A stretch of DNA of 64,000 nt, taken from contig NZ_CP092333.1 of assembly GCF_018595675.2 (NCBI RefSeq), positions 2,690,001 through 2,754,000 of the forward strand. The letters are read 5' to 3'. Of the stretch, positions 6,872 through 7,591 are shown in pieces. The notes below the pieces were generated by a model. That model worked only from the letters and a program-made list of their open reading frames with translations, was not told the origin of the DNA and made no database searches. A program made the translations under genes and the position numbers. The stretch comes from Flavihumibacter fluvii (lineage in GTDB: Bacteria; Bacteroidota; Bacteroidia; Chitinophagales; Chitinophagaceae). Position 1 is the stretch's first letter, and each line of letters begins with the position of its first letter.

Positions 6872-7163
6872 ACTTGTAGCGTGCCTGTTTTAGGGTTGCA
6901 CATAACGCTAATATTATAGTAATTAAATGATCCTTTCCGTTAAGAGCATGCCTGGTTATCATCCCCTCTCAATTATACATTTCTAATTGTCGATACCTCG
7001 CGCAACGCCCCGCAGCTTCGCCTCATCGGTCACACCTAACCAAGGAGCACATTAATATAAACATATCTGCAATGACTTCCACGGGGGAAATACACCCCCG
7101 AACCGCCAGGTACCTGTACTATCCAGGCAGTAAAACGGGATATTCCAGGCATATGAAAGGCAC
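6872..7163. other. Non-coding stretch upstream of the dioxygenase gene
   Basis: No gene is recognised. On the minus strand the dioxygenase leader contains GCGTTATGTGCAAC (6908-6895). A short GC hairpin, CGGGGG / CCCCCG with a 7-base loop, lies at 7082-7100 but has no T run. The stretch leads into the palindromic array at 7164-7277. Confidence 0.45.
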
Positions 7164-7277
7164 TACTAACCGTTCTTTAACCGTTATATAACCGACTTAT
7201 TACCGTTTAAGTATCGTTTTATAACGGTTAATAATCGTTATAATAACGTTTGTATAACGGTTAAAGAACGGTTAGTA
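7164..7277. repeat. 114-bp palindrome of ten CG boxes at 11-bp spacing
   Basis: The outer 25 bases (7164-7188) are the exact reverse complement of the last 25 (7253-7277). CG dinucleotides occur at 7171, 7182, 7193, 7204 and 7215, then 7225, 7236, 7247, 7258 and 7269: steps of exactly 11 bp, with one 10-bp step at the dyad (centre 7220.5). The left boxes read ACCGTT-like and the right boxes AACGGT-like, in an AT-rich background, so each half is a direct repeat and the whole is a mirror-symmetric palindrome. One box per helical turn suggests cooperative protein binding or a cruciform. There are no spacers, so it is not CRISPR. Confidence 0.85.
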
Positions 7278-7330
7278 ATACTTAGAATTTAAGTAGAATT
7301 CCTCATCTTTAGCGCACAAAACCATATCAT

Positions 7331-7591
7331 ATGGCACGCAATAACAACCCCGGCAAGCCCTGGCGGGCTTCTCCGGGAAGCTTAACGGCGTCGTGATCAA
7401 ACCATACAAAGGCATGACCGTCATGGCTACCCAGGAAAACCAACAAGAAACCCACTGCCAAAAAGCGGGCAGTGAATGGACTTTGGGTGAAAGTCTATCC
7501 CACCCTGATCAGCGGTTTCATGAAAAACAAAGGGGATATGAAAAAAATCTTACAGATTCCAGCTTCGCAAGCGCAGGTTGGCAAGCCATAA
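7331..7591 (+). pseudogene. Frameshifted small Bacteroidota protein gene
   Basis: Reading from ATG 7331 gives MARNNNP. The frame then moves by two, giving LAGFSGKLNGVVIKPYKGM from about 7354, and returns to the first frame from about 7457 (KKRAVNGLWVKVYP ... MKKILQIPAS), ending at TAA 7589-7591. The MARNNNP ... SGKL.. VIKPYKG.TV pattern resembles a family of small unknown proteins common in Chitinophagaceae (recalled, not searched). Two shifts that restore the frame, with family-like text in each piece, point to a decayed or mis-sequenced gene. The single open frame at 7393-7611 is therefore not taken as a gene. Confidence 0.45.

Follow-up and report, generated by a model that had tools for sequence, protein, structure and literature searches.

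The array locus and its copies

The window, by which we mean the whole 64-kb stretch of DNA analyzed here, contains a row of ten boxes of the type AACSGTT, followed on the plus strand by a candidate promoter element and a broken copy of a short gene. The positions of these features are given in Table 1.

Table 1. Features of the array locus, in window coordinates
Feature	Position	Strand	Remarks
Ten-box AACSGTT array	7164..7277	.	11-bp pitch; C is the centre of the first five boxes and G of the last five; 25-bp perfect outer arms
Left half-array, AACCGTT type	7168..7218	+	boxes 7168-7174, 7179-7185, 7190-7196, 7201-7207, 7212-7218
Right half-array, AACGGTT type	7223..7273	-	boxes 7223-7229, 7234-7240, 7245-7251, 7256-7262, 7267-7273
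Left flank co-duplicated with array and gene	6892..7163	.	part of the 6892-7486 match to L012
Broken copy of array-linked gene	7331..7591	+	pieces in several frames; intact homologue of 112 aa within own 3349626-3349964
Candidate -7 promoter element TCATCTTTA	7303..7311	+	placed by position relative to L012, L013 and L020

The CG steps of the array are found at 7171, 7182, 7193, 7204, 7215, 7225, 7236, 7247, 7258 and 7269, and are thus separated by intervals of 11, 11, 11, 11, 10, 11, 11, 11 and 11 bp. The outer arms (7164-7188 and 7253-7277) are perfect reverse complements over 25 bp, and the complementarity of the full 55-nt arms is 76%. The letters of the window therefore confirm the ten CG boxes, the 11-bp pitch and the perfect inverted arms reported in the preliminary description of this DNA. 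That description had also drawn attention to a single 10-bp step at the dyad; this spacing is present but does not reflect a slip of phase. The box is a near-palindrome whose centre is C in the left five copies and G in the right five. Since only this centre letter changes, neighbouring box centres are separated by 11 bp over the entire array, and the 10-bp CG step results from the switch of letter. Five of the ten boxes agree with AACSGTT at all seven letters, boxes 4 and 8 at six, and boxes 3, 5 and 7 at five, five and four, respectively.

When scored with a ten-box AACSGTT model at 11-bp pitch, the array, with its first box at 7168, obtained 61 out of 70. The maximum was 37 in the rest of the window and 41 in 60 Markov-simulated windows of 64 kb, and pitches of 9, 10, 12 and 13 bp gave 36-37 in the window, in agreement with the earlier statement that such an array is hard to obtain by chance.

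Pieces of the broken gene were recognized at 7328-7486, 7342-7443 and 7490-7573, with open frames from 7345 and 7418. Four copies in which the distance from the run end to the ATG was measured gave values of 52-57 bp; in the window copy, 57 bp separate the last box from the ATG. In the intact relatives L012, L013 and L020, TACCTTA or TATCTTA precedes the ATG by 26-27 bp; the Bacteroidota promoter consensus is TAnnTTTG. In 10 of the 51 genes examined, either heptamer occurred between the array run and the start codon, 23-33 bp from the ATG; the other 41 did not have it at that distance. In these ten genes the array thus has the position of a putative operator that immediately precedes a likely promoter.

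Within the own genome, i.e. the genome from which the window derives, the array has been duplicated as a unit with the gene and with left-flank sequence of about 270 bp. Window positions 6892-7486 are 79.5% identical to the intact copy L012 over 620 columns, and positions 7486-7563 are 84.6% identical to it over 78 columns; L012 is the one intact copy of this subfamily left in the own genome. The left limit of the duplicated stretch falls at 6885-6915, where the matches to L012, L033 and L043 stop at 6892-6902 beside TTGCACATAACGCTAAT; this is possibly an insertion or recombination boundary. L033 and L043, orthologous loci of two species, have only a remnant of the gene and lack the array stretch between left flank and gene start.

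A search for similar arrays that keep the 11-bp phase, proposed in the preliminary description, found them in the own genome and in related genomes. With the own genome included, 39 genomes were searched and three, all of the same genus, had matches to the AACSGTT array: five arrays in the own genome, which is a single contig of 5.0 Mb, one in G013 and four in G014. The ten-box model with a constant 11-bp pitch fits all ten and adjacent units score lower; the array at own 1536521 has a possible eleventh box. The order of centre letters is exactly CCCCCGGGGG in six of the ten arrays, and deviations affect five of the 100 boxes. Five of the arrays sit immediately upstream of the array-linked gene, whose intact product has 112-119 aa. 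This gene is intact at own 3349626, in G013 and in G014, shortened at own 1536521 and broken in the window.

No gene remnant was detectable at the arrays L009, L014, L017 and L018, nor, by tblastn, at L010. Three of these orphans precede an ORF named here from its translation: a transporter-like one at a distance of about 125 bp (L014), a lipoprotein-like one at about 87 bp (L018) and a divergent, outer-membrane-like one at about 135 bp (L017). The ten-box array at L009 (5303-5414; own 345794) is located between convergent ORFs and has a symmetric, perfect 10-bp flank on each side. Orphan arrays could be targets in trans, or relics.

The gene family and its 11-bp arrays

Relatives of the array-linked gene were found by protein search in 10 of 15 genomes of the genus, and by profile search in 15 of 117 genomes of the family and 22 of 395 sampled Bacteroidota genomes, the own genome being included each time. 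An AlphaFold model based on 63 sequences (mean pLDDT 88.9, pTM 0.65) consists of short N-terminal strands followed by three helices (45-66, 68-78 and 82-95). The second and third helices are separated by three residues and would correspond to a helix-turn-helix layout. Foldseek searches with the models did not find a solved relative at E<=0.001, and the best hit of a PDB profile search was not significant (E 0.41); the assignment is derived from predicted secondary structure. Weak homeodomain hits in the fold searches (E 0.5-4) were not counted as evidence, and Pfam HTH_30 matched one member, only at E 0.05.

No Pfam or NCBIfam family was found above cut-off in the short members scanned, and their best PHROG match was no better than E 0.03. 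In particular, PF19781 (DUF6266; cut-off 23.4 bits) did not match the window's subfamily (intact copy L012) or the other short members and 100-112-aa cores scanned. It did match distant relatives (L139, L133, L140 and L132) at 52-108 bits, and the window's subfamily would thus at most belong to a superfamily related to DUF6266. A Pfam scan of 63 members at E<=0.1 did not reveal any ribbon-helix-helix (RHH), MerR, B12, receiver or OmpR-type family. A role in defence was rejected since none of the 63 members had a PADLOC match at E<=0.01, and an origin from phages or plasmids was rejected because searches with one member, L042, found no match among phages and none among 72,556 plasmid records. 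L036 (1156-1791, G014) encodes a fusion of the array-linked protein with an MNT-like nucleotidyltransferase domain (PF01909, 27.7 bits), and L032, L039, L040, L046, L047 and L048 are longer (186-188 aa) and share a beta-rich, Ig-like-looking C-terminal extension; a Pfam scan of L032 and L048 gave no match over cut-off.

The 114 domain hits were reduced to 88 genes by removing duplicates according to the first 60 residues, and 87 were tested, one gene having less than 200 bp upstream. Loci L083-L122 comprise 40 additional places, 39 of them from rows of the genus and family searches and one, L085, that is the same as L079. Rows G076:C96, G102:C61, G102:C198 and G134:701971 of the family search and rows G158:C9, G388:C40, G303:C2, G195:C4, G388:C5 and G195:C33 of the phylum search were left out of the upstream analysis. 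Upstream of 68 of the 87 distinct genes, lag 11 was the strongest among lags 6-20. The 11-bp-unit score exceeded all 30 local shuffles of the same region in 70 genes, and z was above 5 in 54. Units of 8, 9, 10, 12, 13 and 14 bp passed the same test in only 4, 5, 10, 8, 0 and 3 genes, with z>5 in 0, 0, 4, 0, 0 and 1, and random window segments used as control passed with the 11-bp unit in 6 of 150 cases, none with z>5. Restricting the test to runs with no more than 160 bp between their end and the start codon left 57 passing genes. For 11 of the 70 genes, more than 200 bp separate the end of the best run from the start codon, and chance may account for some of these cases. Of the 17 genes that failed the 11-bp-unit shuffle test, 14 encode proteins of at least 184 aa; the others are the remnants L033 and L050, and L055. 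Lag 10 came out on top in five of the 87 genes, L067, L082, L088 and L099 among them. Upstream of L067, a DUF6266-like gene, the direct repeats AAGTTGGTCT have a unit of 10 bp and not 11 bp.

Among 24 more distant Bacteroidota members, some of them true DUF6266 (PF19781), lag 11 was on top in 14 and the shuffles were beaten in 15; the shuffle test did not detect an array in the remaining nine (L124 and L125 are identical in sequence). L144 and L148 are absent from the lag table of this phylum-level set. Lag 11 was on top at 0.50-0.53 in L139, L140 and L132. The DUF6266 loci L149-L156 were inspected without shuffle control: L153 has a clear 11-bp array, lag 11 is weakly on top in L150 and L151 (0.48 and 0.44) and second in L149 (0.47), and it is not on top in the remaining four (L154 is the same gene as L133).

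Upstream of most members, about 3-10 boxes follow each other at one box per helical turn, and their words vary: TAGGGTT (as in L029), CCTAGGGTT, CTCCAAA/TTTGGAG, CTCCGTT/AACGGAG (as in L042), CTCCCAT/ATGGGAG, CGAAGGAT, GAGGTTACC, GCTAACTATAT and others, as well as AACGGT and AGTGGT in direct arrays of eight boxes. The mirror (5+5) layout is found in several short members and is missing from many others, and is therefore a variant and not the principle; the 11-bp pitch is the general feature of the family arrays. In one longer member, L047 (G009:C7:348807), AACGGT and AGTGGT boxes occur in blocks, and its paralogue L040 (G009:C15:8248) has AGTGGT throughout. The mixed array is a possible snapshot of one box word being replaced by another.

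Box words and the predicted helix

If each protein reads its own array, the box and the residues that read it are expected to change together. This was analyzed for genes with a clear array (z>5 and above all shuffles) and a product of at least 90 aa, 53 genes initially and 62 distinct genes later. In the set of 53, box similarity correlated with residues 67-95, i.e. the last two helices, with a Mantel r of 0.515, versus 0.368 for residues 1-40. When only dissimilar pairs were considered (1273 of 1378), r was 0.285 (p 0.0005) for residues 67-95 versus 0.050 (p 0.12) for residues 1-40. A 20-residue window sliding along the proteins of the 62 genes placed the peak of the correlation at residues 76-95 at all three thresholds. 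For dissimilar pairs of this larger set, the partial r of residues 67-95 given 1-66 was 0.255 (p 0.0005), and the reverse was 0.063 (p 0.07). A weak independent link between residues 1-66 and the box persisted when all pairs were included (partial 0.177, p 0.0005), and single columns outside the helix, 58 and 47, also ranked high.

Pairs in which helix and remainder have diverged to different extents gave a similar picture. Mean box similarity was 0.65 for 20 pairs with a similar helix and a dissimilar remainder, and 0.45 for 72 pairs with a similar remainder and a dissimilar helix; the mean of the column-permuted null was 0.37. Within single genomes, box similarity was 0.68-0.85 for the 17 pairs with helix similarity above 0.4 and averaged 0.40-0.41 for the 70 pairs below that value. 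Particular helices go with particular words: LNVTRNKLYTSLV with TAGGGTT, GQTVYH-type helices with CGAAGGAT, and GKxVYHxAIKD with ACGTARGATAA. An exception is L114, whose helix similarity to L046, L039 and L047 is 0.49-0.53, yet whose box similarity to them is 0.37-0.47. Because gene and array are inherited together, part of the correlation reflects shared descent; the contrast with the N-terminus lowers this worry without removing it. Box spelling appears to follow the predicted DNA-reading helix of the protein encoded next to it.

Possible roles of the array

From these sequence comparisons we infer binding, cooperativity and autoregulation as follows. The array is probably an autoregulatory operator bound by the product of the adjacent downstream gene, the one that is broken in the window. 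The protein would contact its own boxes through the predicted helix-turn-helix, and its subunits, one subunit or dimer per turn, would stack cooperatively along a single face of the DNA. Bound in this way, it would control transcription of its own gene, and box and helix would diverge together, so that each paralogue acquires a private DNA word. Autoregulation seems the simplest reading. The preliminary description had suggested a multimeric DNA-binding site, and this part of it is the best supported by the sequence data. The partition/centromere-like or silencing platform that it offered as examples is not supported, since boxes differ between paralogues and the arrays follow one gene family.

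The duplication of array, gene and left flank as a unit would also be compatible with a mobile palindromic repeat (MITE- or REP-like) whose 11-bp phase would be left over from tandem duplication. The gene-less arrays point in the same direction, as do a transposase-like ORF fragment (identified by translation) that adjoins the array at own 1902986 (L010 4571-4855) and the inner flanks, which pair more within a copy than between copies (0.59 versus 0.45, p 0.002). However, divergent family genes of other genera and families have other box words on the same 11-bp unit, an outcome not obtainable by copying one element, and we consider a mobile repeat quite unlikely. The excess pairing of the inner flanks, accompanied by a slight excess in the spacers (p 0.04) and by the 25-bp perfect outer arms, is also what speaks for a hairpin or cruciform, of DNA or RNA, as the working form. 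Yet complementarity of the boxes within a copy does not exceed that between copies (0.809 versus 0.819 when permuted, p 0.89). In addition, a significant mirror half was present in 14 of 62 arrays, plus three AACSGTT arrays whose run covers both halves, by a test that can miss weak mirrors, and direct arrays of eight boxes exist (L039, L040, L046 and L047). The array of some members, moreover, is located upstream of the promoter-like element and hence presumably outside the mRNA. On the basis of the pairing test and the direct arrays, a hairpin or cruciform was rejected as the main function, being highly improbable, and the strong cruciform envisaged earlier is not upheld as a function. The pairing excess of flanks and spacers is perhaps a mutational trace of palindrome repair.

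Helical phasing over many boxes, together with orphan arrays away from the gene, would suit a platform for a general nucleoid or partition protein of the host that is unrelated to the adjacent gene; no par or rep gene was noticed among the ORFs read. Against such a protein, the 70 same-genome pairs with dissimilar helices have boxes hardly more similar than the permuted null, and the box tracks the predicted helix of the adjacent gene's own product. This diversity within single genomes and the link to the helix are not explained by a common host protein but by the gene product; the platform, which we regard as very unlikely, was rejected on account of the former. The position of the array upstream of the gene would also fit an operator that is bound by a regulator of another, unlinked family. 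That reading would need a separate co-diverging regulator for every paralogue and would leave the correlation with the product's own helix unexplained, and is accordingly unlikely.

The window array is intact despite its broken gene. Autoregulation in cis alone would not keep such an array, nor the orphan arrays. A wider reading, which we put forward tentatively and consider somewhat doubtful, is that the genes and arrays form self-addressed modules across Bacteroidota. Each gene would encode a reader with no recognized solved fold and carry several copies of its own 11-bp word; reader and word would diverge together into several orthogonal pairs per genome, and the reader would also act at orphan arrays. 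If so, residues 76-95 would hold a decodable code for protein-DNA recognition. The operator reading gives an initial clue to the function of DUF6266-related proteins, for which neither a function nor a recognized solved fold is known. It also extends a single unusual palindrome to a general rule that makes a simple prediction for every member. As most family genes seem to have their own putative binding site upstream in several copies, genome sequences directly supply dozens of natural pairs of protein and DNA, which makes a recognition code directly testable. The family could also supply orthogonal regulators for Bacteroidota.

Among the open-licence PMC papers searched, we found no account of a gene-plus-array system and no paper naming DUF6266. 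The family, its distribution and the words specific to each paralogue are seemingly undescribed in this literature, and the tandem phased operator is a known kind of site. DUF6266 itself is the nearest named family: distant members of the family studied here exceed the PF19781 cut-off and some, clearly so L153, have 11-bp arrays. The short members and 100-112-aa cores differ in lacking a PF19781 match, and Pfam records no function for DUF6266. PhoB-type response regulators bind 7-bp boxes separated by 4-bp AT-rich spacers, at a pitch of 11 bp. The arrays described here share this geometry, but no receiver or OmpR-type domain matched in the family.

Rows of 11-bp repeats are likewise bound by ParR of plasmid R1. 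According to PMC9426499, at least two repeats are needed and ParR homologues do not bind non-cognate parC; a title cited in that paper mentions ten direct repeats flanking the promoter. The repeat rows and, on the ParR side, the cognate specificity are the points of likeness. ParR, however, serves plasmid partition with a ParM filament and is typically a ribbon-helix-helix protein, whereas the genes described here are chromosomal, their products are predicted to consist of short strands and three helices without an RHH match, and L042 has no plasmid match. The tandem 11-bp pitch is also that of CarH/CarA, B12 photoreceptors of the MerR family, which are described in PMC9304148 to bind as an oligomer on one face of the DNA to tandem 11-bp direct repeats overlapping the promoter. 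By analogy with CarH and with ParR of R1, cooperative binding to one face may apply to the family arrays as well. No MerR or B12 domain was present among the Pfam matches of 63 family members. In addition, CarH/CarA sites comprise three to five repeats of a single consensus, nnnnTnnACAn, whereas the family arrays have a different word for each paralogue and sometimes a mirror layout.
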